Assembly: GCF_029962835.1 (NCBI RefSeq)
Contig: NC_080574.1
Coordinates: 27,750,001 to 27,814,000 of the forward strand
DNA length: 64,000 nucleotides
Direction of reading: 5' to 3'
Source of the DNA: Magnolia sinica
Lineage: Eukaryota; Streptophyta; Magnoliopsida; Magnoliales; Magnoliaceae
In this document: one piece after another, positions 20,068-63,025 of the stretch
Position numbering within the stretch: position 1 is the stretch's first letter
How the letters are laid out: each line of letters opens with the position of its first letter
Position numbers and translations under genes: made by a program
Notes under the pieces: generated by a model
The model's input: only the letters and a program-made list of their open reading frames with translations
What the model was told of the DNA's origin: nothing
Databases searched by the model: none

Positions 20068-20560
20068 ATTGCGTACTGAGTAAACTCTGTGGGGTCCACT
20101 ATGATTTATATATTTTATCCAATCAGATCATACATTTTACCACATGATTTTAGGGCCTTATCCCAAAACTGAAGCATATATAAAGCTAAAATGGGCCACA
20201 CCACAGGAAATAGTGTGAATTGAATTGAATGTCTACCGTTGAAAATTTCTTGGGGCCATAGAAGTTTTGGATCAATCTTATTTTTGTTTTTTCCATTCAT
20301 CCATGTTTTTTAAATCTTAGAAGAAGTTTGGATGACAAATAAACATCATTGTGGGGCCTAGAAAGGTTTCAACAGTGAAAATCATTATTTCCACTGTTTC
20401 CTGTGGTATGATCCACTTGATCTTTGGATAAGCTTTAATTTTGGGATCAAGATCTGGAAAAATGGATGGACGGTGTGGATAAACCACATAAATTCACAGT
20501 AGGCCCAACAGACTTTACTGAGTACAGTAAGAGCGCACTGAGTAACTCAGTACGCAATCC
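20068..20560. repeat. FB-A foldback repeat, GCGTACTGAGTAA end type
   Basis: The left end is ATTGCGTACTGAGTAAACTC. The right end in reverse complement is ATTGCGTACTGAGTTACTCA, and outside it is the shared tip CGGATTG. The core has the usual arms (GGGCCACACCACAGGAAATA / TTTCCTGTGGTATGATCCAC) and a plus-oriented loop (AGAAGTTTTGGATCAA). Confidence 0.85.
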
Positions 20561-21065
20561 GATTTCACTCTCTCCGAAGCTTCCAAATGGCATGATATCC
20601 CGTTAACGAACGTGGGAAAAGATTTTATGAGGACAAGGAGTCAAAATCTCAACGGTCCTGATTTTCTTGAAATCTGAGCTAAAGATGAGTAGTATTGGTC
20701 TCTCTCTTAAAATCAAATTCCCTGGTCAAACCGGTAGTGTCGATCCTTTGATTTTTTGAAATCCTTTGTTTCTGTCCCACTCAAAGACATGGCCCACTTT
20801 ACTGTATACAGATATGATGGTTGTTTGTCGGCCGTGCCAGCCAATTCCTTGCTTTGATCTTTGCGTTAATCACGGGACAGAGATGGTTGGTCCACGTGGA
20901 TGGTCGTCATCTGTGACTATGTCCATTGCTGACGTGGACATTTTTAGGTCTATATTGAGTTACTCCAAACACACTTCGTTTCAGTCCGCAAGGTGGGACC
21001 CATGGCCTCATGGCTCAACGCACATGGACCTCATCTGGGTGCATGTCAACACACAGGCGCTTGAT
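20561..21065. other. Intergenic; no gene seen
   Basis: Short open frames only; no recognised product or element. Confidence 0.4.
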
Positions 21066-21542
21066 AGGTGACATACAACAACTGTTGTCGGGAGCTCGTG
21101 CAACAGAAAGTTCCTTACGGCCCACCTTGATGTGTGCATGACATCCACTCCGTCCATCATTTGAGCCAGCTCATGATAGGATGTGATACCAGAAATCATG
21201 CCCATACAAAACTCAAGGGAATAGTGGCGCTGGTTGGGACACCCATCGTTGAAACCTTCCTGGGCTAACCCTAATTTTTATATTCCATCCCATCCGTTCA
21301 TAATGTCAGTCCCGCTGTGATGACAGGAAGAAACCAATAACAGCTTTATCCAAAACTCCCTAGTAGGCATCCTCATCTCTACCTTTTCACATGGTGTGGC
21401 CCATATAGGTATTGGAATGGTTTTATTTTCGAGTTGAAGAACTAACATGAGCTGTTACAAATGATGGATGGAGTGGATGCCACACACGCCTAATGGAGCT
21501 CGTTGTTGAACAGCGTCCACACAACAATTGTAGGAAACGCAG
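21066..21542. repeat. FB-A-like foldback repeat, second core type
   Basis: The left arm is ACAACAACTGTTGTCGGGAG followed by GAGCTCGTGC. The right arm in reverse complement is ACAATTGTTGTGTGGACGC followed by ACGAGCTCCATT. Inner pairs are GTGTGCATGACATCCACTCC / GGAGTGGATGCCACACACG and CATCATTTG / AAATGATG. The same core type recurs at 31990. Confidence 0.75.
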
Positions 21543-21924
21543 GGAGTGACACGGACGTCTGTAAAAGGGTACAATGCATGTGAGATGTCTATGATTATGT
21601 GATAGATAGCCTGATTGGGACCACCATCTGACTGATGCAGCTCAATTCATTGATGGCTCTCCTAACAGACACAGATGTGTGCCACTGTAATTAAAATATG
21701 TGATGTCAATGCTGTATTTTCAGTGGGCCCCATAGGGTTGTGGCCTTACAATTTCAAGTTTTGTGAACCACTTCATGCCGATCTATACGGTGTGATGGAT
21801 AATCCGGGAGTGGATTGGGTGAGACACTGATGTAGTAAGATTTGATTGAGCCACTTGCTACAATTAAAGATACAGTGACAAGTACGACTTAGATGTATTT
21901 GAAGAGCCACCCAGCTATGTGGTT
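21543..21924. other. Intergenic; no gene seen
   Basis: It contains scattered repeat words (GTGGGCCCCATAGGG) but no resolvable element. Confidence 0.4.
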
Positions 21925-22195
21925 TTAGGACTATAGGGCTCAGCTTGAAGTATTTGTTTTATATACACTGTGTCCATTCACTTTCCTGCTTATTTTGAAA
22001 ATTAAAATATTCCATGGTAGATCAAAACCACAAGAAACGGTGATGATTGAATGGTCATCATTAAAAACTTCATATGAGTCACAAGTTTCGGATTAAGCTG
22101 ACGTCTGTGATTTATCTTCATTTATACCTCATTGACAGGGTGGATGTAAATAAATATTACAATGGGCCTCAAGGAAAATTTAATAGTGGGCGTTC
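21925..22195. repeat. FB-A foldback repeat, truncated
   Basis: AAACCACAAGAAACGGTGATGATTG, ACAAGTTTCGGATTAAGCTG and GGGTGGATGTAAATAAATATTAC are core and loop words in plus orientation. The right arm is lost near GGGCGTTCCTGGATCC, where the next repeat starts. Confidence 0.55.
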
Positions 22196-22650
22196 CTGGA
22201 TCCACCTAAGCGGCATGCTTTGGAACGAGCGTGGATTGCGGACCGGATGGCGAGGCTTTCGGGGGGACTTCCTGTGACCAGCTATTTGGGGCTGATGTTT
22301 GTGATCCATGCATCCACCTTTTTTACAGTTTACGTTTTGGCAGGGGTCCAAAACTAAAGTAGATTCAAAGCTCAAGTTGGCCACCCGCCCCCCGGAAAAA
22401 GTGGGTAGGGATATGTCTACTGTTGAAACCTTTTTAAGTGTACTGCAACATTTTTATGTCATCTTATTGTTCATAAGATCATTACATGAATTGGAAATAC
22501 AAAAATATTAGTCTGATCCAAAATTTATGAGGCCTCGCAAGCATACTTGAGTTTTGGATCTATCTCATTTTTAGGTCCATGTCTTGACATAAGGGGAAAA
22601 ACGTACGCATAAAACAAATTTCTCGCAAACATCAGAGTGGGCCGACCTAG
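22196..22650. repeat. FB-A foldback repeat, TTTGTGAGAAATCC core type
   Basis: GCATCCACCTTTTTTACAG, CTCAAGTTGGCCACCC and GGGATATGTCTACTGTTGAAAC match the copy at 42640. The right arm ends CAAATTTCTCGCAAACATCAG. It is in reverse loop orientation (CTGATCCAAAATTTATG). Confidence 0.65.
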
Positions 22651-22654
22651 CTAT

Positions 22655-23010
22655 CCATCACAAAGTATCCAAATCTCAAAGTGGACCGCACCAAAGGAAA
22701 CCATGGGAATTGAACGCCTACTGTTGAAAGTTTCCTGAGCACTTGGTAAGTTTGGATCGACCTGATATTTATGCTTCCCTTGGTCCATGTCTGTGAGACC
22801 TCATGAACAGGTTGGATGACAAATAAACATCACCATATATCCTAGGAAGGTTTCCACGGCAGGCATCATTATCCACACCATTTCCTGTAGTGTGGTCCAC
22901 TTGAACTTTAGATATGCTTCAATTTTAAGATCTTACCATAAAATAAGCTGATAAAAAAGATAAACGGCGTGGATAAGACACATATATCACAGTGGCCCCA
23001 CAGAGTTCAC
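22655..23010. repeat. FB-A foldback repeat, left tip missing
   Basis: It begins inside the left arm (AAATCTCAAAGTGGACCGCACC). The plus loop (TTTGGATCGACCTGATATTT) and right arm (GTGTGGTCCACTTGAAC ... GACACATATATCACAGTGG) follow. Direct contact with the preceding copy suggests insertion into it or a deletion between them. Confidence 0.7.
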
Positions 23011-23422
23011 TAAGCAAGAAATCATTACGGGTTTGAAATTGGTTGGGTCGAGTTCGGGAAAACTGGGCCAGGGCCTCACCTAATCGGCTCCCGTGAATTG
23101 CATGGTAGAGCCATCTCTTTGCAGTACACATGATAAGAGTGTTGTGCAAATCAGACCAGCTCATAGGCAGGATATTTGAATGGACGGTTTATGTCTTAAA
23201 AAGTACACCTATTTGTCCTATTGATCCGGTCCGTGATCATTAAATTGACGGTGGAAAGCAAAAAAGCTAACGGTCAAATATCCAATTGGATAAACCGTAG
23301 GAATTAATGGGTACGATTGTCTCATGATTGGTTTTGTTTTGAATGTGAGCCACCCGTCCTGCTGACCGTATATGGGTGGACCCAATTGATGCATGACGGT
23401 GGGAATGCGGATTGCATACTGA
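23011..23422. other. Intergenic; no gene seen
   Basis: No supported coding or repeat structure. Confidence 0.4.
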
Positions 23423-23916
23423 CATTGCCCTTAGGTAGTCGCTACTGCATGGTGATATCTGGGCCCGCCATAATGTATGTATTTTATCCACACCATTTAT
23501 CCAGATTTTCAGCTCATTCTACGGCAAGAACCCAAAAATGAGACAGATCCAAACCTCAGGTGGACAACACCACACGAAAAAGTGGTGATTAAACAGCCAA
23601 CATGAAAAACTTCTTGAGGGCCACAAAAGTTTTGGATCAAGCTGATATTTGTGTTTCCTTTCATCCAGTCATGTGTTACCTAATTAACAGGTTGTATGGA
23701 AAATAAACATCGTAGTGGCCCCTAGGAAGTTCTTAACAGTAGGTGTTCAATCACCACTGTTATCGTGTGGTGTGGTCTACTTGAGATTTGGATCCACCTA
23801 ATTTTTTGAATCACGCATTAAAATGATCCGGAAAAATAGATGAACGGAATGGATAAAACACATACATCATTATGGGGCCCACGGAGCACCGTCCAGTAGC
23901 GATAGGCAATCAGCGT
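23423..23916. repeat. FB-A foldback repeat, ATTGCC...CGCTACTG end type
   Basis: The left end is CATTGCCCTTAGGTAGTCGC then TACTGCATGGTG. The right end in reverse complement is GATTGCCTATCGCTACTGG then ACGGTGCTCC. The core arms are complete and the loop is plus (AAAGTTTTGGATCAAGCTG). Confidence 0.85.
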
Positions 23917-24440
23917 CCCTGGAGAGATTGCTCTATCATATTCCATTTTTCCAGTCCACCGTATCATTTTTTTTTTCCCTTTTATAATACTATGTGATTA
24001 GTAGTTTTAATACAACATTAATTGCTACGTGACTATGTGTCATGTCTGGGGCCAGCATTATGTTATGTGACCTGAAAGTCAGGCTAGTCAGTTGGTAATC
24101 AGGTGGGCCACACAAGTACGAGAAAAAGACAACTTAAATAATTAACTATCGATCAATTTTCAATATATTTGCGTACATGGCCCATCTGAGACCGGACAAA
24201 TGCGCCTCTCCGCCCACTGCGAATACACGATGGGGCACACCAAATGACCGGCCTGGATCCCTCACACACTCAGTGAGACTAGGTTGCATAACAGCCATAC
24301 CACAGATCCTTAGTCAGCAATCCTAGTCATCATCCTGGTGGGCCACCACAACAGTATAAGAGTTTACCTTATGCAGACGCCCACATGGCCATGATACGCA
24401 CGCAACTTGATGTGGTCCACCGGGTTCGGACACTTTGGAA
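23917..24440. other. Intergenic; no gene seen
   Basis: Nothing supported apart from isolated repeat words. Confidence 0.4.
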
Positions 24441-24840
24441 ACGGATTGGCTACTCCCCCTGCTACCAGCCAATGGCTGATGGTCGGTGCTCTGTGGGCCC
24501 CACCATGATGTATGTGTTTCATCCATTCCGTCTATCTATTTTTATAGATCAATTTATAGTATGAGACCAAAAATGAGGTATATTCTAATATCAAATGTAC
24601 CACATTAGAGGAAACAGTGTTGAATAAACTTTGGCCATTAAAAACTTTTTGGGGGCCATAAAAGTTTTGGATCAAGTTGATCTTTGTTTTTTCCCTTCAC
24701 CTGTGTATGTATGACCTAATCAATAGATTGAATGTCAAACAAACAATGCATTGAGCCTTAGGAGGATTTTAATTGTGGATATCTAATCACTATTGTTTTC
24801 CTCAGGTGTGGTTCACCTGAGATTTATATCTCTTGTGTTT
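24441..24840. repeat. FB-A foldback repeat, right end lost
   Basis: It starts at ACGGATTGGCTACTCCCC and reads through GTGGGCCCCACCATGATG, a plus loop (AAAGTTTTGGATCAAGTTG) and the inner right arm (GTGTGGTTCACCTGAGATTT). It then ends without its outer right arm. Confidence 0.75.
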
Positions 24841-25236
24841 TTCGGACCAAGGGTATCTCACGAATAATACTAAGTTATTTGACATGCCATATATTATTTC
24901 AAGAAAAGATAAGCTACTTTAGTCACCGAAGTTAGATTGACAATGGGGAATTTGTGAGATTCTATGTTATTGACAATCAGAAAATTATTTTTACTTTTAT
25001 TTTTATTATTTATAATAAGTTTTAGTTTTATTATAACTTTCATCATATGAGCTTTAGCAGTTATCTCAATCATTAAAAGTGCTTACAAAAATTAAAAGAA
25101 TAACATATTTGAGCCAAATAGGACACTTATTATTTTTTGCGAAAATCATGAATTCCAATAGAAATGTTGATCATTTATAAATAATAAGTTTAATATGTAT
25201 GGAAAGTTACAAATTTTAAGGAGTTTGATTTTTGAA
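24841..25236. other. AT-rich intergenic DNA; nothing recognised
   Basis: No supported feature. Confidence 0.4.
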
Positions 25237-25389
25237 CTTAATCTAAGCACTTTCTCCAATGGTAGTCTCTTGGGAGTTTTAACACCTGGTCATGGGTTCG
25301 AGTATCCATAAGTGGTGAAATCCCACTAAGGCATGAGTGTGTGGGGGTGTGTGTGCGTGTGTAAAATAATAATAATAATAATAATACAT
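25237..25389 (+). mobile_element. tRNA-like SINE
   Basis: It has an A-box-like ATGGTAGTCTCTTGGGAG, a B-box-like GGGTTCGAGTATCC, a GTGTGTGGGGGTGTGTG body end and an (AAT)n tail (25366-25387). Similar AT-rich 20-mers (TTTTAAGGAGTTTGATTTTT and TTTTAAAAGGTTTGATATTT) flank it and are probably decayed target duplications. Confidence 0.7.
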
Positions 25390-26109
25390 TTTAAAAGGTT
25401 TGATATTTATTTTTATCATTTATCAATTAAATTTTAATTTTCTATATATATATATATATAGTCTTATTTTCCCGGCGTCACATGTCCTACCATAAAGTGG
25501 ATATCATTATATGAATTTTCAAGTCCCGCTAGGTAGTCCAAGGAGACCCATTTCCACAGTACAACTGCACATGACATCATTCCAGGGTCTGTAGTCTATG
25601 ATACTTAATTGCACCTTTTTTCACCAACCCATGATACACGACCGGCCCACCTCCATTTTCCTTTAAAATGGACCCTTAATGGTTACACATCCATGCATTA
25701 GACATCAATCAATCATGCCAACATGGATGGTAGACGACAGATATTAATAAACATCGTTTTTCTTTTTTGGGGTGACGGATTCCAAATTAAAGTAGGAAAG
25801 ATGCTTTTGACAAAGGAAAAAAATGGTAGGTTGGGATTTGTGGTCCAGCACTAGTGTCCAAGTGGATGATGGTGATGTGTGTTCCTGATCGACGGCTCGG
25901 ATGTGACTATTTTTGTAAATGGATGCCGTCCGTGATTGCTGTATACAGTAATAGAATCACAGGGTGACGTGTAAGATGCCTTTGTTTGAGTATCTACAGA
26001 TGCAGCTTATGGTTTGGTTGTCTAGGCCGTTCATCTAATAGAGCCCGCCATAGATGGGGGCATGCCCAAAATATCTCCAAAAAATATCTCCTAGATTGAA
26101 TGGACACGG
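25390..26109. other. Intergenic; (TA)n at 25441-25460, otherwise nothing
   Basis: There is a short TA microsatellite and no supported gene or element. Confidence 0.45.
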
Positions 26110-26600
26110 TTTGGCTAGCGGCCCAACATGGTGTCAAAACTCTGTCAGTCTTACCGTAATATATGTGTTTTATCTATACTATCCATCCATTTTGTAATCT
26201 CATCTTAAGGCATGGACCGAAAAAATGAGTCAAATACAAGTCTTAGGTGGACCACACCACAGAAAACAGTGGGAATTGAATGATTACCGTTAATTTTTTT
26301 TTGGGTGCCACAAGTTTTGGATCGACCTGATTTGTGTTTCCCCTTCATCCAGGTCTGTGCCACCTCATCGATAGGTTGGATGGCAAATAAACATTACATT
26401 GTTCCCAGAGAATTTTTAATGGTAAGCGTTCAATAAAAACTGTTTTCCTATGGTGTGATCCACCTTAGTTTTGAATTTGCCTCGTTTTTGGGTTCATGCC
26501 AAAAAAATATGCTGCAAAATAGATAGACGGTGTGGATAAACCACATATATCATGATGGCCTCACAGAGCTTTGATAACAGGCAGCTGGCTGGGGTCGGGG
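26110..26600. repeat. FB-A foldback repeat, CAACATGGTGTCAAAACTC end type
   Basis: The left end is CCCAACATGGTGTCAAAACTC. The right end in reverse complement is GCCTGTTATCAAAGCTCTG. The core is complete with a plus loop (CAAGTTTTGGATCGACCTG). Confidence 0.8.
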
Positions 26601-26689
26601 TCACTGGCCAAACCGCGTCCATTGGAATATCCACAATCCAATGTGGAGTCCATCTGATCAACGGTTTAGATCAGCGAATCATGGTCCAC

Positions 26690-27018
26690 TGGCATTAAGT
26701 ACGGCAGGCATTATAATGGCTCGATGCATGAGGACCCAATGAAACCACTGTATATTAATAACTTGCCACTTGAAGACTAGGCCCACTACAAAGTGGACAC
26801 TTGTTTGCTTAAATAGGCTCAATGGATATTTTTCATTTTAACCGTCCAATAAATGTCTACCAATCGACGGTAAGATGATCAAACAGGTATAAGTTTTGGT
26901 TCACGATACATCTGAACTGAGACATGTAATTTGGACAGTTCAATTGAATTACTCGATGCCACATCCAAAGTATCAAGGGCCTGTGTATCATCCATCAAAC
27001 TCTGCCAGAGTATCAAGG
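26690..27018. repeat. FB-C repeat, left part missing
   Basis: It contains AAAGTGGACACTTGTTTGC, ACCGTCCAATAAATGTC and the right tip ATCAAACTCTGCCAGAGTAT, as in the copy at 28160-30355. Confidence 0.55.
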
Positions 27019-29510: not shown

Positions 29511-29549
29511 CCCCTGACTCATTTCCTCACAACTAAGGTAGAGAATGAT

Positions 29550-30154: not shown

Positions 30155-30369
30155 AGAATGATAATTATATTGATTATTGAGGTAGTTTTTATAAAAAGCT
30201 GCCCAAATGTAAATTTTATATTAATTAGGTAGTTTTTTATAAAAATTTTATATGAGTACTTGAATTTGAATCACTTGTACTCCAAGTTGCAATTTCTAAT
30301 TGACGTATAGGAGCCAGCGTATCATCCATCCATCACACTCTGCCAGAGTATCGAACTTTTTCGTGAGAG

Positions 30370-30826
30370 GATTTGGTGTTACCTTAGCCCTTACCATGTA
30401 CGGCTCACCTTGATGAATATGTTGTATATCCACACCGTCTATCCGTTTTCTAGCTCATTTTATAAGGTGATCCCAAAAATGAAGCAGATTCAGACCTAAG
30501 GTGGACGACTATTGGAAACAGTGGTGAATGACCATTTTAAAAAAATTGCAGGCCACAAAAAAATTGGATTAGGCTTATCTTTTTATTTTCCGTTCATCCA
30601 GATCTGCTTGACCTTATCAACAGGTTGGATGGCAAATAAACATCACAGTGGACCTTAGGAAGTTTTTAAATCACCACTGCTTTCTTTGGTGTGGTCCATC
30701 TGAGATATGGATTTGTTTAATTTTTAGGACAGCATCCAAAATAAGCTGGAAAAACGGATGGACGGCATGGATATACATCACATCATCAAGGTGGGCCCCA
30801 CAGTAAGGGTAACACACCTAATCGGA
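30370..30826. repeat. FB-A foldback repeat, GATTAGGTGTTACC end type
   Basis: The left end is GGATTTGGTGTTACCTTAGC. The right end in reverse complement is CCGATTAGGTGTGTTACCCT. The core is complete with a plus loop. The copy at 43204 has the same end type. Confidence 0.85.
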
Positions 30827-31989
30827 TCCCAACCTTTTCTCTTTCATAATATAAATCTAAGACTAATCTGCCCTCTTGATGAGGTTCCCACAAAAAGCTA
30901 TTCCTCTTTTTTTTTTTAAAAGCCTATGCTTTAGGCTCTACACACCCAATTGAGGAACATTTCGAATGGATAGGATACTGCAAGCTCTTTAGTTGTTGGT
31001 GGTGACTCTCCAGCCTAACACATGGCATAGAAGCTTGGCAATCCAGACCAACTGATGGATGGAACATCACCAAAAAATGACACTAATAAGATGATAGTAA
31101 CCGTCCGATTTTTCCCTTATAATTGGACAACAACCATTTTACCCTTAACCATTCATTTGATACCCAACAATAGGGTCAGTCAAGTTTTCTTGATCAGAGT
31201 GATTTTAAATATACGCTCCATCCACAATATGGCCCACAGTTTGAATGGTCTGGATGGCTGTACATAGTACAACATGAGAGGAGGATCACTCACCACCGTT
31301 TTAAAATGGTGGTGAACAATCACAGGAGTCTACCGTTTATTTTGGATAGAAGACGGAGGTTAGGCAATGGTGCAGCTCCCCTCTTCTTGTTTCTTATCTA
31401 TTTTCGTAATATCCTACTCAAAGATGTCTGATTTTGACACTTTTTTTTCATACGGAGGAATAAATAATAACCGTAACTAATTGCATGATTGAGCTCGCTT
31501 TTCATAGAAATTTACCAAAAGTTCCTCCATTTATAGCTATCACCAGCCCAGTGCATGCGCGATCAGCACGCCTATGATGAAATATATTTATTTATTATTA
31601 CAAACCATACTATGGTTAGCTGGTCCACTCATCAGATGGGCTGCACCTCCATGAAGATTGCCTGGATCGATAATCAGGCTCGTCCATTAATCAGATGGGC
31701 CGTATGATTTGTCTTAGATACTTGGATGACCGTTGATTTTTGAGAGTTTCGATGGTATGGCCCGGTTGATGAGGCAGAAGGGCCTGTTGTGTGCTAGGTG
31801 ATTTTTATGGTTGGGCCCACCTTTTGGATGGTTGGTGTCCTTTATTCATGACACGTTGACAGGAGTTGCATTATAGCTTTGGTCGTATGTGATCATTTGT
31901 ATTAACATGCAACGCTGACAATGCTACTCCATTTTCCTGTTCCTGCAAAATTGTGACATAGGCAAGAGCCAAGAAGGACGCGGTTTTCC
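30827..31989. other. Intergenic; no gene seen
   Basis: Open frames here are short and unrecognised. No element ends can be supported. Confidence 0.45.
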
Positions 31990-32345: not shown

Positions 32346-32365
32346 CCAGTGTGACACGGACATAA

Positions 32366-32964
32366 ATTGTGTAGTCAGAAGCTCACCAGGCTATAGCGTG
32401 GTGTGCATTCTTTGTGGGGTCCACTGTGATATATGTGTTTTATCCATGCTATTCATCCATTTCCAGTCCATTTTAGGTCATGCATCCAAAATTGAAGCAT
32501 ATCCAAAGCATAAGTAAACCACATCAGAGAAAACATTGGAAATAATTGTACGACTTGTGCCCAAAATTAAAGAAAATCAAAAGCTCAAGTAAACCACGTT
32601 GCAGAAAATAATGCAAACCTTGTCGTTGAAACCTTCTTAAGGGCCATGATGATGTTTATTTGTCATCCAAACAATTCATAAGGTCATGTAAACCTGGATG
32701 AACGGAAAACACAAATATCAGCTTAATCTAAAAACATCTGTGTGCCTGGAGATGTTTTCTACGGTAGGGTAGGTGATTAATTGCTACTATTTACTATGGT
32801 GTGGTCCACTTGAGCTTTGGATATGCTTCAATTTTGAGCTCATGCCCTCAAATGAACTAAAAAAAATGATGAACAACATGGATAAAACACATACATCACG
32901 GTAGGGGCGCACAGAGAATACACACCATCTATTGCATGGTGAGCTACTCACTACACAATCGGCA
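32366..32964. repeat. FB-A foldback repeat, ATTGTGTAGT...GCTCACC end type
   Basis: The left end is ATTGTGTAGTCAGAAGCTC then GGTGTGCATTCTTTGTGG. The right end in reverse complement is CGATTGTGTAGTGAGTAGC then GGTGTGTATTCTCTGTG. The loop is in reverse orientation. An internal duplication of about 60 bp (CTCAAGTAAACCACGTTGC repeats the preceding arm segment) makes it longer than usual. Confidence 0.85.
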
Positions 32965-33515
32965 TCCAAATGACACATCCTAAAAGGGCAAGCCATGTGA
33001 CATGGTGATCGGACCAGGTAATCTCATGATGGGGCCCACTTTGCACTATTGCCACATCCACCACGTGAGACACATTGGTGGGAGAAACGTAACAGCATGT
33101 TAATCTTAGCATCTATGGTTGTGATCACCCGTTTCAATCTTCACATGGGCCATGCAGAGTGATTAGTAAACCATCACATGGGCCCCATTCAAATTATTCG
33201 AGTAGACATTTTCATTGTTCGAAATCTGCATAGCTTCAAATGTTGCCAATCAAATGACATTGTATTCCAACCAAGATCACGGGCAAATATCACATCATCT
33301 AATCTACAAAACATCGTACCACCGGCATACAAAACAGCTATGATTGACCCCTCCGCATAAGGTCTAAAATTCAAAATCATATACTTAAACTAGTACTACA
33401 ACGGATCTTTCCCTTGTCACCTTCTGTAAAATTAAAATCAACACCTCAAATATCTGCAAATATCCAATATTGCTCATGAAAACACTTTATGATATCATGT
33501 CAGTACCATTCATTT
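32965..33515. other. Intergenic; no gene seen
   Basis: No supported feature. Confidence 0.4.
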
Positions 33516-38861: not shown

Positions 38862-39284
38862 TCAAGCAGAGTAATGCTCCGGATCCCACAGCGTCTATAA
38901 CACGGTAACCTTATCGTGGTGTTGACCTCTGTGGGGCCCACCATAATGCGTGCATTAATCCACACCGTCCGTTCGCTTTTACCACACTGTAGATGGCAAG
39001 GGGTTTAAAATATACACTATCACATAATTCGAGACATCCATCGGTGCTCTTCAAAGAGTCGGTTTAAGGCAAAAATGTTAACGGTCGATACAACAGCATG
39101 GTGAAGTGAAAATAAATAGCGGGTAGGATAGTATCTTAAGCTTAATTTTTCGAAACATGGGCCATCGAAAGTAGTTCGCGATAAGTGGACGGTCCCGATT
39201 GATACTTTGCCCTGCCACGTGTATCTCGACCCATCGGCTCTGCCGTACGAAGTAGGCAGAAATAATTCCATCTGAGAAACGGAA
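38862..39284. repeat. Unclassified repeat-like DNA before an FB-A copy
   Basis: GTGGGGCCCACCATAATGCG and CCACACCGTCCGTTCGC near 38930 are FB-A left-arm words. The sequence then departs from the family, so this is at most a left-end fragment. Confidence 0.4.
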
Positions 39285-39735
39285 GCGGATTGCCTGTGGC
39301 ACGACGTGGCGAAAGATCTGTGGGGCCCACCATGATGTATATGTTTTATCCACCCCGTCCATCCATTTTTCCAGCTCATTTTATGACATGATCCCAAAGG
39401 TGATGCAGATCCAAAGTTTAAGCAAACCACACCACGTAAAACAGAGGGAATTGAACATGTTGAAAGCTTCCTAGGGCCCAGCGTGATGTTTTATTTTCCA
39501 TCCAACCGGTTCATAAGGCCACAAAGATCTGGATGAAGCGAAAAGATAATTTTAAGCTTGATCCAAAATTCTCTACCCCAAGAAGTTTTCAACGGTGGGC
39601 GTTCAATCTCCACTTTTTTCTGTGGTGTGGTACATTTGAGCTTTATATCTGCATAAGTTTTGGGCTAATGAACTAAAATGATCTGAAAAAACCGATGGAT
39701 GGCGTGGATAGAACACATACTTCACATTCAGGAAG
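39285..39735. repeat. FB-A foldback repeat, right tip lost
   Basis: It starts GAAGCGGATTGCCTGTGGC, followed by GTGGGGCCCACCATGATG. The loop is in reverse orientation (AAGCTTGATCCAAAATTC). The right arm stops at ACACATACTTCACATTC. Confidence 0.8.
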
Positions 39736-41480: not shown

Positions 41481-42127
41481 TCTGGTGAATCAGGGTAAAG
41501 AGGAAATTTTGATAGAATGATTGTAATAAGCCCATTAAAATATATACTTTGGCAAAAAAGAGAGAGGAAATTCTGAGCCTTGGGCGGGCCACAAATGCAA
41601 GGCTCACAAATAGGCGACTCATTAACATTTTTTTAAAAACCATGTCCAATGTTTGGATGGTTCAAATCATGTTATTGATGTGATTTTAGTGTTGCGGCCG
41701 ATAATTGAATTGTTTTGGGGTATCATTAGCGTGCCATGTGTCTAATGGATTAATTGGATTAGTAGCGTAGAGACACCTTTGTTACATGTGCGACTCTTTT
41801 ACCCTAAAAAAGAGGCAAAAAAAAAAAAAAGCGTTTCCTCTGGATTACATTGGAATCTCAATATTTTGTTGAGATTTCAAAACGCACCAAAAAGGTGGAT
41901 TTGAAATACCTCTGATTCTATTTACCACCAAATCCAAGGCTGCCAAATGCAAAAAGCAGCTATTTGGATTTGAAATACACCAATTTACCACCAAATCCAA
42001 GGTGCCAAATGGGGTGTAAGTGATTTTGATGGAATGCGGTAAGTGATTTTGAGTTAAATTTTTTTTTTTCCTATCTAAATGACAACTCTATCCTTTTCAA
42101 AGTAACTTTTGGTGAAAGCTTTTAGGG

Positions 42128-42638
42128 CTAATTGTGTAGTTGCTGTGTGGACGTGGCAAAGTTCTTTGGGTCCATCATGATGATGTGTTATATCCACCAC
42201 ATCCATCCATTTTCCCACATCATTTTAGGGCATGAGCCAAAAAATAAGGCAGACCCAAAGCTCAAGTGGACCACACCACAAAAAGTTGTGGGGACAATGA
42301 CGCCCACCGTTGAAACTTTCCTAGGGCCCACCATGATGTTTTCTTGCTATCCAACCTGTTCATAAGGTCACATGGATTTGGATGAAGGAAAAGCATAAAT
42401 ATCAGCTTGATCCAAAACTTTTGGCCCCCAAGAAGTTTTCAATTGTAGGTGTTCAATCTCTACTATTTTTGTGGTGTGGTCCACTTTAGCTTTGGGTTTG
42501 CCACATTTTTGGGCTCATGACCTAAAATAAATGACAAAATGTATGAATGGTATGGATCTAACGCATACATCATGGTGGGGCCCACAAAACTTTGTTACGT
42601 CAACACGGTATCCACAAAGTGTTGTTTTATTGTTAGGC
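42128..42638. repeat. FB-A foldback repeat, GTCAACACGG end type
   Basis: The left end is TGCTGTGTGGACGTGGCAAAG and the right end in reverse complement is ATACCGTGTTGACGTAACAAAG. The core is complete with a reverse loop (TTGATCCAAAACTTTTGGC). It is the first of three consecutive copies. Confidence 0.85.
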
Positions 42639-42639
42639 A

Positions 42640-43203
42640 ATCTGATTCTGCTTTGCACGTGGATTTCTTTTGAAACCCTTTGCAGGAAGTTCTTGTGATG
42701 GGAAGCTAGGTGGGGCCCAACGTGATGTTTGTGAGAAATCCACCTCGTCCATCCATTTTGCCATATCATTTTAGGACATGAGACAAAAAATGAGGCATAT
42801 CCAAAACTCAAGTGGGCCGCATGACAAGAAATAGTGGGTAGGGAAACGCCTACTGTTGAAACCTCGTTGGGGTCCACCACGATGTTTATATGCTATCCAT
42901 ACTCTTCATTATGTGATTCCTATTGGGATGAACTAAAAGCACAAAAATATTAGCCTGATCCAAAACTTCTATGGCCTTACAAATGTTTCAACGGAGTACG
43001 TTCAATCCTCATTGTTTCTTGTCATGCAACCCACTTGACTTTTGGATCTGCCTCATTTTTGGTCCCATGTCAAAAAATGATATGGAAAAGCGTATGGACA
43101 TGGTGGATTTCTCTCAAACATCTCGTTGGTCCCCACCCTCTCATCGCAAGCACTTCCTGCGAGAGGCTTTACCAGGAAATTCGCATCCTTCCGCTTTGAA
43201 CGG
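42640..43203. repeat. FB-A foldback repeat, TTTGTGAGAAATCC core type
   Basis: The arms pair over TTTGCAGGAAGTTCTTGTGA at the left and, in reverse complement, CTCGCAGGAAGTGCTTGCGA at the right. GATGTTTGTGAGAAATCCAC pairs with the GTGGATTTCTCTCAAACATC end. Reverse loop. It abuts its neighbours. Confidence 0.85.
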
Positions 43204-43712
43204 GAGCGGATTAGGTGTTACCTGGGTTACACGATAGTGGGTGTTGCCGTGACCGTGGGGCCCACTTTGATAAATATATTTTATATTCATGCCATCTATC
43301 TATTTTTCTAGCTCATTTTAGGGCATGGGCCCAAAAATGAAGCAGATCCAAATTTGAAGTGGACCAGACCACAAGAAACAATGGTCATTGAATGACCACC
43401 ATTAAAAACATTCAGGGCCCACCATAATGTTTAATTTTCATCGAACCTGTTTATAAGGTCATAAACCTGGATGAAGGGAACAAACAAATATTAGCTTGAT
43501 CCAAAATTTTTGTTGCCCCCAAAAAGTTTTTAATGGTGGGAATTCAATCCCCGTGGTGTGGTTTGCTTGAGATTAGTATCTTCTTCATTTTTGTGACCAT
43601 ATCCTAAAATGATCTAGAAAAATTGATGGACCATGTGAATGTACAACACATGCATCAAGGTGGGCCCCACATCCGATGTTGCCGCGGTTACACCTAATCC
43701 ACTCCAACTTTG
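43204..43712. repeat. FB-A foldback repeat, GATTAGGTGTTACC end type
   Basis: The left end is GCGGATTAGGTGTTACCTGG and the right end in reverse complement is GTGGATTAGGTGTAACCGC. Core complete, reverse loop. It is followed by a 75-bp left-end fragment of the TTTGTGAGAAATCC type (43715-43790). Confidence 0.9.
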
Positions 43713-43792
43713 GAAGGACGCCAACTAGGTGGGGCCCACCGCGATGTTTGTGAGAAATCCACATTTTTTCAAATCATGTTAGGGTATGGGTC

Positions 43793-43992
43793 CAGATTAG
43801 GGGCAATTTGGTAAAATTGCCAAATTTCAGATGTATTTGCCAAACAGAAAATTTTGGATTCAGTACCAAATTTCGTGTTTAGGAATTTTTTCAGACACTT
43901 TACCAAACATGCATTCCAGCACTTATCAGTACTTAAAATTCACTTCACAATGGATATCGTACTTAAATTAAATTTCCGACTTTTTTTATTCA
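43793..43992. mobile_element. Small MITE, 200 bp
   Basis: The left end TAGGGGCAATTTGGTAAAATTG pairs with the right end, in reverse complement TAGGGTGCATTTGGTAAATTG. No clean target duplication is visible. Confidence 0.65.
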
Positions 43993-56585: not shown

Positions 56586-56618
<33 letters not shown>

Positions 56619-58795
56619 TTTAAAGCATGGTTGGATCTTCCATTTTGTCCCGCTTGTGATTTCATGATCATCGTCTTAGCCTTCTCCTGGCGATTTGGGG
56701 TTGGCTTTGAAATGGTAGATTGGAAAAAGTTTTACAATCGGCTGAGCACTAGACATCAGCCTTCCTCTTTTACCTAGGCTCATGGAACCAGCCATAGCAG
56801 ACGCTCACATTTGTCTCACTCGTGATTTATAAAGTGAAAATTGTTGCAAACTGTAAGTCAGGATGCGCTGAGATGATCAATTCAAGATAGAATTAGAGAA
56901 TAGACATTTGTAGTCCATACATCCAATAAACGGGATATTTTTAGCCACTCTACTGATTGGGTCAATAACCTCATATAGTTGTAAGAGGCCAAGTCTTGTT
57001 GTCTGAACAAATAAAGTGAATTCGTAGTCCACTAGTTGGGCCGTGCATATGGATGATTAGAACCCTTCAAGATGTAGGTCCACCATGAATGGGCTATGTG
57101 CAGTTTTGAGTCGCCACAAATGGTTCTAGCATTTTGATCTTTGGAGTCTAGACAAATAAAATCATAAAATGGTCAATCGTTTACATTCAAGTCTTGTTTT
57201 TTTTTTTATGGTTAGGATCAGCTTCATCTCTACAGAAAAGAGGATTGTCTTGGCCTATGCCTCGTGAGGCCTACCTCCTGGAGTGGGTTGTACACTGATC
57301 CACATGTCCACATGCTTCAACTCCCATGATTTCACTTCAGTAGCCCAAGGACTACCCACCCTTCACCCTAGTTATAAAGTAGGCTGTAGTGGATGTTTTT
57401 TTGTGCATCTAGAGAGCTGGATGAAGATGGGAACTTCTGCATGCCAACGGCTCTAAGAAATCATGTTTCTACAACTTCAGCAGTATTTTATGGGCTGTAA
57501 TAATTGTGATAGTGAAGCTAACCAAATTCTGTAACAGGATTTTGAAAATTTTCTGCCAAGTGCTGATGAAGATCTACTTGCATCAAACCTTTAGCAATGC
57601 ATAGTTTGTCAGAAATTCGTGGGACCAACACTTGCTTACTGTGAAATGTTGCCCTTAAGAATCCTTGGCTTAAGGAGTGGCTAAGTTGAAATTTCATATT
57701 TGGAATGAGTTTCCCCTTTCCTGTTATCTTTTGTTTGGAAGTAAATATTTTTACCAATAAAGAGAATGAATTTATTTGATCATATTTAGTTTTAAACTAA
57801 GACCTGGAATAAAGCTGCTTGCTCACGGGAGATGGGGGAAACCCTATTTTGTGGTGTGTTTGGTTGCGCCAAATATCATGCAATTTCATGATTAATCAGC
57901 TTAATTTGGTGCAAAATATCATGAAATTTCATGATGTTCGGTGCAACCAAACTCATCCTTAGAGAAAATACTTGCTTTAAATGGTGGATTTTGTAACTAT
58001 GAAAAGGTTTACTCAGGGAAGTGCACATATGGCATACCTGCAATTTCCTTTTGCATGATGCATAAATAGGGAAATCAAGAAACTATTTAATTAACGACTC
58101 CCTTTCCCAATGAAACCAACTTAGGGTTGAAAGGTCTTTAAAAGGCCATGGAAGTCAGTTCCACTCTTAATCCTGACAAGATCATCGTGGGACAGGACTT
58201 TTTGCAAGCTCAGGGAATAGGACTAGTAACTGGGATATCAAATCAACAGGATTTTGGACAAAAGAAATCGATGTTCCTATGTTTTGTTCTCCATAAGAAG
58301 ATCAGAATTTTTTATTTCCCCATCAAGTTTGATTTTTGGATCGACATGCAGTGTCCTCGAGAATCGTTGTATCAGATTTTGCTATTGTTTTTCTTCAAAT
58401 GCTATTTGGTTCTATGCTATAGGCTTTGAGACTTGAATCTCCCAAACTGGATTTTCACCCATGGAAAAATGATTCCTTTTTGAATTATTGTGGATGTTAG
58501 CAAAATATACTTACCATGCCAAGGATACTTTTGGTTTTGATGTATATGCACCTACAACATGTGCTCAGTTTGACGATAAGGTTTTCCAAAGCAAAATGTT
58601 AATTCCTGTGTTTTTTTTCAAATCATCTTGAAAACTTCTTCAGCAATTGCTCCTCTGATGCTCTTTTATTGTCTTTGCTCGGATGCACAGGAAGAGAAAA
58701 GAAAGATGGTTTCATCAGCTTTCGGAGAAGACCCAAGTGGGGGCTCCGCAACTCGGCTTACGGTGGAAGATCTGAGATACCTATTTATGGTCTGA
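46243..58795 (+). CDS. CHR28: SNF2-family ATPase with RING finger, CHR27/CHR28 (FRG) type
   Basis: Coding exons are about 46243-46440, then 46533-47773, 48627-48698, 48794-48871, 48965-49832, 50158-50288, 50814-51035, 54759-55355, 55603-55812 and 58691-58795, for about 1,240 residues. Exons two to ten join in phase. The N-terminus has an acidic SSDSE patch, then three 56-residue repeats. ATPase motifs: [14 protein letters not shown] (about 523), II DEAQ (about 730), [13 protein letters not shown]3HC4 RING lies between the lobes (CGVC ... CGHVFCYQC ... CPIADC, about 932-972). In the second lobe: [24 protein letters not shown]. The family acts in the nucleus as DNA-dependent ATPase and probable E3 ligase; Arabidopsis CHR27/CHR28 act with SUVR2 in gene silencing (recalled). 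The first junction is uncertain in phase. Confidence 0.93.
46982..47486 (+). repeat. Three tandem 168-bp repeats inside the SNF2 coding exon
   Basis: Equivalent codons start at 46991, 47159 and 47327, exactly 168 bp (56 codons) apart. Each unit has H-A/T-R/H-FQL, then K-x-P/R-S, then the (I/M)LR-x-LP block, then (T/A)-x-SKA and TG. No frame change occurs across units. Confidence 0.9.
51036..53472. other. SNF2 intron between RING halves, left part
   Basis: This is part of a 3.7-kb intron that splits the RING finger. The stretch 51280-51960 has a TATATAAAG-like box on the minus strand and could be an old LTR fossil, but no coding domain or paired repeat supports that. Nothing else is recognised. 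Confidence 0.4.
53473..53900 (-). mobile_element. RTE-type LINE, 3' end, antisense in SNF2 intron
   Basis: On the minus strand the piece ends CATGTAGCTGACCCCAACTA, then AGGCTTTAGATGATGATG, the (GATGAT)n-tailed 3' end typical of plant RTE LINEs. Upstream of it the frame resembles the last part of the reverse-transcriptase ORF (the AAGGACATGGATGGAGG region). The 5' part is truncated, the usual LINE outcome. Confidence 0.8.
53901..54758. other. SNF2 intron, right part; nothing recognised
   Basis: The acceptor TGCTTTTGCAG ends at 54758. No other feature can be supported. Confidence 0.45.
55813..57854. other. Last SNF2 intron, left part, with microsatellites
   Basis: It holds several A or T runs, a GAA run near 56368-56384, a C10 run at about 56391 and a (TTA)n run at 56587-56624. 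No gene or element is supported. Confidence 0.5.
57855..57955. mobile_element. Hairpin element, copy 2
   Basis: GTGTTTGGTTGCGCCAAATA at the left pairs with TTCGGTGCAACCAAACTC at the right. CATGCAATTTCATGATTAAT and ATCATGAAATTTCATGATG form the inner arms. About 100 bp, closely related to the hairpin nested at 44465. Confidence 0.75.
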
Positions 58796-59339
58796 ATGTG
58801 GCCTGTCTCACCACAAACTTCAAATCTTCCAGGTGTTTCTTGTAACACTTATGGGCATACCTGAGATGTTTGGCTTCATGGTTTTTGCTGGATGAGCCTA
58901 GGGGTATGATCCTGGAACCAGATGGTGGGTACATGGTGCTCCATACCGCCTAAGATTCAACTAGAAATTCTGGATAATTCATGTAAGCCATGGTGACATC
59001 TGGTTATGTGAGGGTAATGCATTTTGTTTTCCAGTTAGCTGTCAGGTGCAATGCACATGGAAAGGGGCATGGTGGGGTGTGAAGGGGTGAAAATTGTTTT
59101 ATGATCTTGGTTAAGTTAAAACTCATTGATTATAATCAACCTATGTGATAGACTATTAGATAGCGCTTGATTGTAAGCAACCTATGTAATAGTCTTATGA
59201 CATTGCACCTGTGGGAGTTTTGTGCTCTCACTGCCAGTCCCAAGCTCGGATAAAGCAGGGTTACACCAGGTTGGCAGCCGGTGTCAAACTTATGCCATGA
59301 ATTGTAACATGAATCCGAACAATATGACATTCCAAATCA
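58796..59339. other. 3' UTR and downstream flank of the SNF2 gene
   Basis: Follows the stop codon at 58793-58795. The first few hundred bases are plausible 3' UTR; no other feature is seen. Confidence 0.45.
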
Positions 59340-59411
59340 CAGTGAAGTGGCAGAAAAGGATTCATGTAGCTGAACCCAGATAATTGGGATGAGGCCTAGA
59401 TGCTGGTGGTG
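59340..59411 (+). mobile_element. RTE-type LINE 3' terminus fragment
   Basis: AGTGGCAGAAAAGGATTCATG, then a diverged AGCTGAACCCAGATAATTGG and GGCCTAGATGCTGGTGGTG, match the 3' end of the LINE at 53473 in the opposite orientation. Only about 70 bp remain. Confidence 0.7.
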
Positions 59412-59420
59412 ATCTTAGTT

Positions 59421-59490
59421 TTTTTTTTTTTTTTTGGGACCATTTCTCGATTTGTGCGTGTCATCCTTGTGCAGGGGCCATGCTAATCTT
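59421..59490 (-). ncRNA. U6 snRNA retrocopy, 5'-truncated, with A-tail and 9-bp target duplication
   Basis: On the minus strand bases 59490 to 59437 read as the 3' half of U6 (TTAGCATGGCCCCTGCACAA, then GGATGACACGCACAAATCGA, then GAAATGGTCC), with one difference from plant U6 as I remember it (GCACAA for GCGCAA). An A-tail of about 15 replaces the normal U-run. ATCTTAGTT stands on both sides (59412-59420 and 59486-59494). The first 42 or so bases of U6 are missing, so this is a retropseudogene and not a working gene. It sits in the LINE tail. Confidence 0.92.
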
Positions 59491-59494
59491 AGTT

Positions 59495-60375
59495 AATTTA
59501 GGAAATGGTGAAAATTTGATTTATAATGTGCAGCTGTTCTTTCCTTTAAATCACTCGTTCCATTGGATTGTGAATCTGCATACCATCCACCGCTGGATAG
59601 CCTACTGTTAGATTGCAAAGTCTCAATCCTATTTTTACCATTAATTCCTAAAATACGCCATTCATTACACATCATTGAGTTTACCCTGTTGTTCCACATT
59701 TACCCTTCTCATGCATTGGTATGACTGTATAATCTATTGCTGGTAGATATGGCATGACTATTTTTTTTCCAGAAAATGCCGATGGCAGCTTGTTCTTGTG
59801 GCTGGTTTGGTCCAACCACTCAGAATCATTCACAAACAATAGGCATCTAGCATGGATGGTGGTCAGAGTGTTTGTTTTTCAAATAGAGGTTGTGGGTTTG
59901 GACTTTACCTGTGATAATGCTTGCTTTTTTGTTATTAAAAGAAAACTGTCTACCGACATCCTCTTTTATTTATATATATATTTTTGGTGTTTTTATGGTC
60001 AGTTTTGGTCCAAATGGGTCCCACTGTCCGGTCTGGTCCAGCTAATAAATTACGTACCATGTATTACCAAATTACTCACTTCCTTTGTATCGAATTATCC
60101 CTGTGATTTCTTGGAGAGCTAGTTTTGCAAATGGTACGAGAGGTGTGAGGTTTGCTAGAAAACATCCCTATTTATTGCTATAGGGTCTACGAGGTCTTTA
60201 GCCTTTGGATTTACCTTTGCCTTTGCCTTTCAATGATTCAAGTTGCCTGTTTGATTTGTTGTAATAATTACCGTGGATTAGAGGTAAATTAATAATCTCT
60301 CTTTTTTTTTTCACACGTTTGGAAGAGGCGTGGAATTTTACTCCCAAAATGGGGCAAAACATTACCTCTTAACCA
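59495..60375. other. Intergenic; no gene seen
   Basis: No supported coding region, RNA or element. Confidence 0.45.
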
Positions 60376-60838
60376 ATGTTCCAGGCCAAAAGTCCATGGG
60401 CCCCATCATGATATATGTGTTATAGTCATGCTGTCAATTCTTTTTTTTTTTTTTTTTCCAGATCATTTTAGGAGCCGAGCCCAAACATTAGGGAGATCCA
60501 AAGCTCAAGTGAGCCACACCACAAAAAATAGTGGGGATTGACTTCTCTGGGGCCATAGAAGTTTTGGATCAAGCTGATGTTTGTGTTTTCCCTTCATCCA
60601 TCCATTTGTGTAACCTTATGAACAGGTTGTATCTCAAATAAACATTATGGTGGTCCCTATATAGATTTCAATGGTAGTCGTCATTATTCCCACTGCTTCC
60701 TATGATGTGGTCCACTTAAGCTTTGGATCTGCCTCATTTTTGGGCTTCTGCCCCAAAATGATATGGCAAAATGAATAGACGGCGTGGATAAGGCACATCA
60801 TGGTGGGGCTCAAAGGATTTTGGCACTTAACCATGGAC
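60376..60838. repeat. FB-A foldback repeat with short left arm
   Basis: The left end is CCAATGTTCCAGGCCAAAAG and the right end in reverse complement is CCATGGTTAAGTGCCAAAAT. Core arms and a plus loop (AGAAGTTTTGGATCAAGCTG) are clear. A T-run near 60440 interrupts the left arm. Confidence 0.8.
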
Positions 60839-60884
60839 TGCCTCATTTTTTCGAGCCAGGAAGAAACCCAGATGGTGTAGATAT

Positions 60885-61159
60885 TAAGGGTGCACATCGA
60901 ACCAGTAGAACCGTGGAACCGGACTGGAACCGACCAAATTGTCCGGTTTGGTCCGGTTCTAGAGTGCACTGGTTCTGGTTCTAAAAATCAAAGAATCGAT
61001 TACATCGGTTAGGTTCTTGGTTTGGGGGTATGTAGAACTGAATTGATCCGTAAAACCGAACCATAGATCTAAGCCATGGAACCGAACCAGGAACCAAACT
61101 ATTTAAATAAAAAAAACCTAATACCCTAAGTCCCTTTTTTGGCTGTCCATCTCTCTTGC

Positions 61160-61207
<48 letters not shown>

Positions 61208-61245
61208 TGTCGTTGATCCTCTCTCTCTCTCTCTCTCTCTTGCTC

Positions 61246-61291
<46 letters not shown>

Positions 61292-61470
61292 GGGCTGGCT
61301 AATAAAAAGTCCAAAACTGTGGAACCGAACCGATTTTAATGGTCCGGTTCCGGTTCAGTTCTAGGGTGCTAACGGTCCGGTTCCGGTTCCGAAAATCCTA
61401 GATCCGTTAAGAACGGTTCAGCTCCGATTTCACCCCAGAACCAGACCGAACCGACCTGTGTGCACCCATA
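60885..61470. mobile_element. hAT-type MITE, 586 bp, with 8-bp target duplication GTAGATAT
   Basis: GTAGATAT stands at 60877-60884 and 61471-61478. Ends are TAAGGGTGCACATCGAACC and, in reverse complement, TATGGGTGCACACAGG. Subterminal arrays of GGTTCCGGTT and GAACCGGA words fill both sides. The centre is an interrupted CT microsatellite. Confidence 0.93.
61164..61288. repeat. Interrupted (CT)n microsatellite inside a hAT MITE
   Basis: Three CT blocks (about 61164-61203, 61219-61240 and 61249-61287) are separated by short unique spacers. Confidence 0.95.
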
Positions 61471-61478
61471 GTAGATAT

Positions 61479-62539
61479 CAACATCTTACATATGGAGTAA
61501 GTAATAAATGCTGAACTCAGTCAAATTATAAATACGGGCCCTTGGTACAACTTGATTGGGTGAAACCATATTTGCCTTTATTTATTTATTTTTGAACTTT
61601 GTGGTTTTCTTAGCCTTTGAATAGCGGACGGGCTGAAATATTTAAATCTGAGAGTGTTTTTGAGTATCCTCCATCGTATAAAGGGTCTAGGTCACTCAAT
61701 CTGGACCTCGGATGTGTTCTAACAAAACTCTACGGGTGAGCTCTCTTATGGTGGTTCCACTTTAAAAATGGTGGTGAGACTTCAACAGTGTGCATGGAAT
61801 GGTTTCGAGGCAATCTAAACAATCAACTCACAGATCAAACTTTTGATGGCTAGGATTGCTTGATTGCTATGATTTTAGACATAATCCCATAAATTGAGTT
61901 TTTTTTATAGCGGTAGGTGAGCCCCAAATGTGAGTAGATGAGTCAACAACATTTTTAAAAGGATGCGGATAGGGCTGCAATGATCCAATCGACTCAATCC
62001 AAGTTTGGAAAATGCCAACCCGGTTTTAATTCAGGTTAGTTGAGGTTCGATTTGGAATAGTCACGTATATATAGGTCGAGTTGGGTCCTCTTCAGGTCTG
62101 GTTGGGCCCGTGGCTGACAACTTACAAATTAAGGAGTTTCTAATTCCCAATATTCAGCTGACCACGTGTGCCAGATCTGGTCTGATCATTTGGTGGGGCT
62201 AACCATAAACAAATCTCGATGCAGAGATAAGGACGATTTACTCATCAGGTGGGCCCCACGTGTACGTGGAAAATGGAAGGTTGGAAAGTAGACAACAGCT
62301 AGTGAATATTCAACATAAACGCGTAGTCCATCTGAAGACGAGTGGGATCGGCCTGGATTTGGGGAAAAAAAAATGATTTTTCACATAGAGGCCCACCAGC
62401 TAATGCGTCGGAATTCGGATCTTGCACCTTTGTCATGTTATCACCTGGTCCACCTCTTTTATCTCTTCAAGAGCCATTCGCGTTTCTGCCCTTCCATGGG
62501 GAGCTGATACGAGTGATGCCAGAGAGGAACGCGTATTAG
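61479..62539. other. Intergenic; no gene seen
   Basis: Short open frames only; no recognised element ends. Confidence 0.45.
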
Positions 62540-63025
62540 CGGCGATCCCGGAATCCAGCTAGTTGCTTGCGACCCTGATCGTGGGGCCCACTTCGATGTA
62601 TGAGTTGTATATCGACGCCGTCCATCCGTTTTGCCCGCTTATTTTAGGGCATGGACCTAAAAATGAAGCAGATAAGAATCTCATCACACAGTGGGGATTG
62701 ATCCCACCATTAAAAGCTTCTTGGGCCACAAAAGTTTTGGATCAAGCTTCTATTTGTGTTTTACTTTCATACATGTTTGTATGACCTTATCTACAGGTTG
62801 GATGGCAATTAAACATTAGTTGGACCCTATGAAGTATTTAGTGGTGGGCGTTCAATGACCACTCTTTCCTGTGGTGTGGTCCACCTGAGATTTTTATCTG
62901 CTGCTTTGAGACCATTCTCTAAAATAAGCAGGCAAAGTGGATGGACGGCGTGGATATTACAACACATACATCTAGGTGGGCACCACGGTACCCACATAGC
63001 TGGATCCGGGATCGCAGCTAATTGG
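62540..63025. repeat. FB-A foldback repeat, GCGATCCCGGAATCCAGCT end type
   Basis: The left end is GCGATCCCGGAATCCAGCTA and the right end in reverse complement is GCGATCCCGGATCCAGCTAT. Core complete, plus loop. The tip-proximal arms are nearly identical, so this copy is probably young. Confidence 0.88.

Follow-up and report, generated by a model that had tools for sequence, protein, structure and literature searches.

The closest described systems are plant Mutator-type elements and the Galileo transposon of Drosophila. The hallmarks given for Mutator-type elements in PMC3310237 are target-site duplications (TSDs) of 9–11 bp and terminal inverted repeats (TIRs) of 100–500 bp. The same article (Ferguson and Jiang 2012) describes plant MULEs with tandem long TIRs, in which both ends gained a segment before the elements amplified. 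Galileo, a Foldback-like element of the P superfamily, carries one central region with TIRs of three subfamilies, and its authors invoke both recombination and conversion between copies (PMC3573991).

FB-A is a family of old, non-coding foldback transposons of a plant genome. Its near-palindromic core of about 425 bp was found at 26 loci (nhmmer profile, E<1e-5) in the window, i.e. the 64-kb stretch of Magnolia sinica DNA that was analysed; the loci were merged by hand, and 11 of the 26 had seeded the profile. The five measured copies are 468–610 bp long. The arms are alike over about 170 bp of core per side, the centre is less symmetric, and in the anchored copies the match runs from the tip into the core, so that long terminal inverted repeats span most of each element. 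FB-A thus resembles plant Mutator-type MITEs and TIR-MULEs in its short length, its multiple copies, its adjacent or nested insertions, its long TIRs and the 9-bp near-TSDs of three copies, and the near-TSDs suggest Mutator-type MITEs. No transposase was seen in the 8 scanned of the window's 22 stop-to-stop open reading frames of at least 110 aa. Exact core patterns had no match in viral or other genome contigs, as expected for a plant element, and six core-derived sequence words did not occur in the papers searched.

Galileo, as presented in PMC3573991, is like FB-A in combining one centre with several TIR pairs, and the statement of an earlier note on this DNA that no named family with such a modular build is known is not supported in view of its three TIR subfamilies. 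According to the same account it differs in belonging to the P superfamily, in its 7-bp TSD, in its longer elements and in its within-copy arms, which are 98–100% identical. In the tandem-TIR MULEs, as PMC3310237 describes them, what the ends gained is a second copy of the TIR, whereas the outer segment of FB-A is unlike the core edge. A tandem-TIR origin of this segment was rejected, as all 18 arms gave z≤0.7 against their own core edge in the same orientation.

Two usable arms are present at 13 of the 26 loci, which form the sample for arm-to-arm comparisons. Tips could be anchored in nine of these copies and in none of the other four (10351, 12043, 60398 and 63440). Three of the nine have 9-bp near-TSDs (8/9), each with one internal mismatch, only 9-mers having been scored. 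Copy 30370 (30363..30830, plus strand, 468 bp) has its ends defined by AACTTTTTC (30354..30362) and AACCTTTTC (30831..30839, 8/9). Copy 42710 (42655..43188, minus strand, 534 bp), with GAGAAATCCAC in its core and the right tip GCGAATTTCCTGG, lies between TTCTGCTTT (42646..42654), which abuts the presumed end of copy 42162, and TTCCGCTTT (43189..43197, 8/9). Copy 62540 (62527..63030, plus strand, 504 bp) forms a single end-to-end hairpin (z −16.3) between GCCAGAGAG (62518..62526) and GCTAGAGAG (63031..63039, 8/9). Random positions reach 8 or more matches in 40 of 5000 cases and permuted flanks in 3 of 72. The offsets are 8 on the left and 7–8 on the right; these positions place the true ends 7–8 bp outside the ATT of the tip and about 5 bp outside its CGG. 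The tip motif CGGATTR, which had been described as constant, is real (exact in 5 of 34 usable outer arms, against 0.5% of random 62-mers; the looser GATTR in 12 of 34, against 15%), but it is degenerate and lies inside the true end of the element.

The best TSD candidates of the other six anchored copies reach only 5–7 of 9. Copy 32366 (32358..32967, minus strand, 610 bp), whose outer arms are the best matched of the set, has the weak candidate GTGTGACAC/AAATGACAC (6/9), and copy 43204 (43202..43706, minus strand, 505 bp; tip GGATTAGGTGTTACC, akin to that of 30370) likewise only 6/9. No TSD was found at the expected offset of copy 20068 (20060..20566, plus strand, approximate ends; left tip AATTGCGTACTGAGT, right tip GGATTGCGTACTGAGT), and none was seen at the ends of copy 23423 (23403..23918, plus strand, approximate ends; tips GATTGCATACTGA left and GATTGCCTATCGCTACTG right), the middles of which are 34 and 15 bp long. 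Ends are also approximate in copy 26150 (26101..26621, plus strand, arms GGACRCGGTTTGGCYAG) and in copy 42162 (42123..42649, minus strand), where the tips are degenerate. Copies 39317 (39281..39728, minus strand, left tip GGAAGCGGATTGCC) and 24495 (24437..24851, plus strand, left tip GGAAACGGATTGGC) have one visible tip each, none having been seen at the opposite end of 39317, while 24495 has lost its right end. Core copies were found on the plus strand at 10351..10761 (core arms match, outer arms do not), at 60398..60817 (no anchorable tip) and at 22666..23006 (without the left part of the profile), and on the minus strand at 12043..12454 (diverged, with matched outer arms and an unanchored tip). 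An apparent further element, of which the window end leaves only the start (63951..64000, plus strand), resembles 20068 and 32366 in tip and middle. Adjacent or nested copies lie at 42.1–43.8 kb.

The segment between tip and core is matched within a copy and differs between copies, much as the earlier note had claimed. In the 75 bp outside the core, 17 of 26 arms (13 two-armed copies) resemble the opposite arm of their own copy more than any other arm, compared with 7 of 26 for the first 60 bp of core. Among the nine anchored copies the within-copy match of the middle is significant (permutation p=5e-5), and z>4 is reached by 5/9 mates and 0/144 non-mates. For core stretches as long as the middle, the values are 7/9 mates and 49/144 non-mates, or 5/9 and 59/144. 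With the tip included, 8/9 mates and 9/144 non-mates are recognisable, the length-matched core stretches giving 9/9 and 100/144, or 8/9 and 99/144. Some of the segments quoted earlier as different are nevertheless alike: the one that begins at 63959 aligns with those of 20068 (z 9.9) and 32366 (z 9.5), the latter two align less strongly with each other (z 4.5), and that of 30370 aligns with 43204 (z 7.6). The arms are inverted repeats far above the between-copy level, yet imperfect ones, since the length of tip plus middle differs by at least 6 nt in 7/9 anchored copies. Outer arms are poorly matched in 10351 (mate ranks 29 and 29 of 33) and 60398 (7 and 3 of 33), and in 30370 the mates rank 5 and 7, each arm being closer to 43204. 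Some of the motifs previously quoted are right-arm spellings; the left arms read GTGTAGTCAGAAGC at 32366, CCCGGAATCCAGC at 62540 and TGGTGTTACC at 30370.

The earlier view that such matching distinguishes the middle from an unchanging core is, however, not supported. Within-copy identity exceeds between-copy identity in every segment of the nine copies: tip 0.69 vs 0.55–0.57, middle 0.49 vs 0.38–0.39, and core stretches 0.74 vs 0.67, 0.73 vs 0.65 and 0.61 vs 0.57–0.58. Non-consensus states shared by both core arms are likewise in excess (56 against 27 expected, sd 5; 50 against 24, sd 4.5). Substitution identity within the nine copies is the same outside the core (273/337 = 0.81) and inside it (775/972 = 0.80; p=0.64), and what differs is the rate of indels, with 9.5 events per 100 aligned bases in the outer segment vs 3.3 in the core (32 events each, p=6.5e-5), counts that depend on the alignment. 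Between copies, core identity is practically equal on the same side and across sides (0.67/0.67, 0.65/0.65, 0.57/0.58), i.e. the arms keep no side identity, which a symmetric ancestor also predicts. Outer similarity tracks core similarity as it would in one tree (Mantel r=0.31, p=0.00035 with 21 copies and r=0.21, p=0.04 with 14), a modest correlation that includes neighbouring copies. The ML tree of 29 core arms leaves 18 of 26 inner branches open, with three starred, and joins the arms of one copy as sisters in 3 of 13 copies (10351, 42710 and 62583); it has too little signal for a comparison of topologies. The refuting condition set in the earlier note therefore has a mixed outcome: the middle fails to align across most clusters (0/144), but the weakly resolved trees do not demonstrate a conflict.

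FB-A is probably an old Mutator-type MITE family whose arm matching was inherited from the founders of several subfamilies and was not renewed in each copy. A Mutator transposase encoded elsewhere would have moved the copies. In the moving lineage, the spacer of some 10–40 bp between terminal motif and core would have changed fast, chiefly through indels and short duplications. Every change would have been passed to the opposite arm, either by foldback conversion or by template switching while a gap was repaired. Such homogenisation would have preceded the amplification of each founder; copies would have received symmetric ends and afterwards decayed independently, hence the inherited matching. 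Matched changes do require the arm-to-arm copying or paired acquisition postulated earlier at some point in this history, but a process continuing in each copy is not supported. Such continuing conversion, via hairpin or snap-back repair, was the mechanism first proposed and now appears improbable. The matched states of both arms and the long identical runs of 32366 (p=0.004) and 30370 (p=0.03) would agree with it, but arms are about 20% apart in both outer segment and core by pairwise alignment, and 28% in the core columns of the 13-copy alignment, and in 11 of the 13 copies no such run stands out at p<0.05. As a general cause, conversion after insertion was rejected on this decay and because long identical runs occur in 2 of 13 copies.

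The favoured history has to accommodate middles whose between-copy similarity does not exceed chance (0/144 pairs with z>4), although JC distances of the core (0.35 within copies, 0.49 between) suggest that the founder cores may be only about 0.15 per site apart; if the middle changed gradually, it must have done so much faster than the core, and its replacement in one piece would explain this at least equally well. The modest Mantel correlation, the lack of a convincing TSD in 6/9 copies and the absence of any observed FB-A transposase also weigh against it. It is possible, if somewhat unlikely, that recombination or gap repair repeatedly set the palindromic core between the ends of other Mutator-type families, with both ends exchanged so as to match. 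Unrelated middles beside similar cores (0/144 vs 49–59/144) and the small founder distance speak for such an exchange, and the Galileo chimeras, as published in PMC3573991, are a parallel. Copy 23423 could be chimeric, its left tip resembling 20068 (z 5.8) and its right tip 39317 and 24495 (z 5.9 and 5.2), but its own two arms match about as well (z 5.7). The correlation of outer and core similarity argues against exchange, as do the within-copy indels, which indicate that the outer segment is unstable on its own. When the window was searched with all 18 anchored outer segments, three further short stretches matched, of which two lie at other FB-A copies and one is 12 bp long, so that no outer segment without a core was seen in the window. 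It is very improbable, despite the fairly sharp edge of the core (CTCTGTGGGGCCC) and the clustered copies mentioned above, that the core arose as a MITE of its own which landed in other palindromic MITEs. Core edges carry no direct 9-bp repeat (0–5 of 9 matches in nine copies), and a nested-insertion origin was rejected for this reason; inverted matches at the edges reach 6–8 of 9 in four copies and 0–2 in the other five.

FB-A is a measurable case of non-coding transposons renewing their ends, with a signature of core-like substitution identity within copies, about three times as many indels, and changes that recur in the opposite arm. All copies of the genome could separate mutation plus arm homogenisation from whole-end exchange as the origin of TIR subfamilies. 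We also speculate, with considerable doubt, that the subterminal spacer might be a dedicated, fast-changing recognition module that is rewritten by self-templating mini-hairpins and mirrored in the other arm by foldback copying. Every new matched pair would then found a subfamily that differs in transposase specificity, whereas the core would remain unchanged. Mini-hairpins, which would also suit conversion in each copy, provide a lead: they are enriched in the outer segments by a sum test (z 3.6 left, 2.4 right; Fisher's method p=0.058), with a small excess in the far flanks too (z 1.5 and 0.9). One of them, ACTGAGTTACTCAGT, lies in the 36-bp right middle of copy 20068, the left middle of which is 8 bp long.

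The foldback family FB-A, a near-palindromic non-coding element in which a common core is flanked on both sides by a middle segment and a tip near CGGATTR, was defined with a profile of ~428 positions built from eleven oriented copies. A profile search found 26 loci at E<1e-5 in the window (11 seeds included, loci hand-merged), and since the element is near-palindromic the matches fall on both strands. The consensus arm begins CTCTGTGGGGCCCACCATGATGTATGTG, and the core is presumably akin to repeats frequent in magnoliid genomes. The window resembles plant nuclear DNA, with U6 snRNA-like and plant snoR71-like matches in Rfam (59429-59517 and 1392-1500, in the order listed) and, from a Pfam scan of 8 of its 22 long ORFs, matches to an LRR protein, SNF2-helicase pieces, RING pieces and a retrotransposon gag. 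Arms were analysed at 25 loci (38363 omitted) with the core edge placed via local alignment; 34 of 50 arms were retained (score at least 40, alignment start at most 8 bases from the edge), both of them in 13 copies. Nine of these, without 10351, 12043, 60398 and 63440, form the anchored set; their tips were anchored, like the loci merged, by eye. All results come from old copies in one 64-kb window.

The opposite arm of the same copy, i.e. the mate, ranks first for 17 of the 26 arms in two-armed copies over 75 bp outside the core edge, and for 7 of 26 over the initial 60 bp of the core. In the anchored copies, mates match each other better than under permutation for the middle (p=5e-5), for the tip (p=3e-4) and also for three consecutive parts of the core (p=1e-4, 5e-5 and 0.009, respectively). 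At z>4 the middle alone joins 5/9 mates and 0/144 non-mates, as opposed to 7/9 and 49/144, or 5/9 and 59/144, for core stretches of equal length. Tip and middle together join 8/9 mates and 9/144 non-mates, their core controls 9/9 and 100/144, or 8/9 and 99/144. The recognisability counts therefore indicate that the middle changes much faster than the core between copies, and the contrast drawn in the earlier note is upheld.

The suggestion that one arm is copied from the other in each copy fared less well. Ongoing copying would predict near-identical arms, but arms of the same copy differ by ~20% both in the outer segment (tip plus middle; 273/337 aligned columns identical) and in the core (775/972), and the figure from the 13-copy alignment, taken over core columns 1-110, is 28%; unusually long identical runs occur in 2 of 13 copies. 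Founders (source elements of successive subfamilies) with symmetric arms, followed by decay of their copies, would predict an excess of arm-shared non-consensus states in the core too. Such an excess is seen: two core counts exceed permutation (56 vs 27 and 50 vs 24), and a third, 54 vs 37, lies inside the permuted range. Core arms on the same side of different copies resemble each other no more than arms on opposite sides do.

As to why the middle differs, sequence comparison leads us to favour a single lineage whose spacer is prone to indels and whose founders were homogenised. This reading is suggested by several observations. Within copies, the outer segment and the core carry substitutions at the same level, while indel events per 100 aligned bases number 9.5 and 3.3, respectively (p=6.5e-5), and tip-plus-middle lengths differ between arms by at least 6 nt in 7/9 anchored copies. 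Small hairpins are in excess in outer segments, a weak effect that is significant by a sum test in the outer 50 bp of arms. Among 23 hand-cut tip-plus-middle segments, z exceeds 5 for 13 of the 244 pairs drawn from different copies, including three that join the element cut at 63959 with copies 20068 or 32366; some middles held to be copy-specific are thus diverged relatives, most pairs staying below this level. Outer similarity correlates with core similarity (r=0.31, p=0.00035), and the 18 anchored outer segments have nothing beyond one 12-bp match in the window away from the family. An exchange of whole ends between elements is the less probable source of the differences, one that we keep in consideration because founder cores seem just ~0.15 per site apart (JC, from core alignment identities). 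Perfect small hairpins with stems of 6-7 are seen in the outer 50 bp of e.g. 12043L, 12043R, 20091R, 21113L, 24495L and 63440L.

Similar architectures have been described. Galileo elements of Drosophila mojavensis have one central region that occurs between TIR pairs belonging to three subfamilies (PMC3573991, section 8), much as differing outer segments surround the FB-A core, and the discussion in that paper appeals to recombination as well as conversion among copies. As tandem-TIR elements of plants show, MULEs can have their ends altered on both sides and amplify afterwards (PMC3310237); FB-A differs from these in that its outer segment does not duplicate the core edge. Given these precedents, the general build of FB-A is already known; the open-access papers searched contained no description of the family itself.

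CGGATTR, previously regarded as the outer tip, is found exactly in just 5/34 arms. An outward scan that started at the ATT of every anchored tip found direct repeats of 8/9 at offsets 7-8 in copies 62540, 30370 and 42710, and the motif therefore lies inside the terminal repeat. At least 8 matches occur at 40/5000 random positions and in 3/72 permuted flanks, adjacent copies having flanks in common; by simple binomial arithmetic three such copies in nine have probabilities of ~4e-5 and ~6e-3, respectively. Offset 8 gives the top mean match across the nine copies (3.67 vs 2.12 permuted), and the best direct repeats of the other six are 5-7 of 9.

Adjoining or nested copies form a series at 42123-43850, where the left 9-bp near-duplication of copy 42710 adjoins the presumed end of copy 42162, the right one closely precedes copy 43204, and an additional fragment comes next, at 43731. 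A second core type, apparently a related subfamily, is present at 42710-43133, 43731-43805 and 4142-4295, with near-edge arm sequence GAGAAATCCAC or AGAAATCCAC. In copy 20060-20566 the short left middle resembles a deletion between two GTACTSAGT repeats, both kept in the right arm. Another element with a 20068-type tip apparently starts at 63951-64000, where it is cut by the window end.
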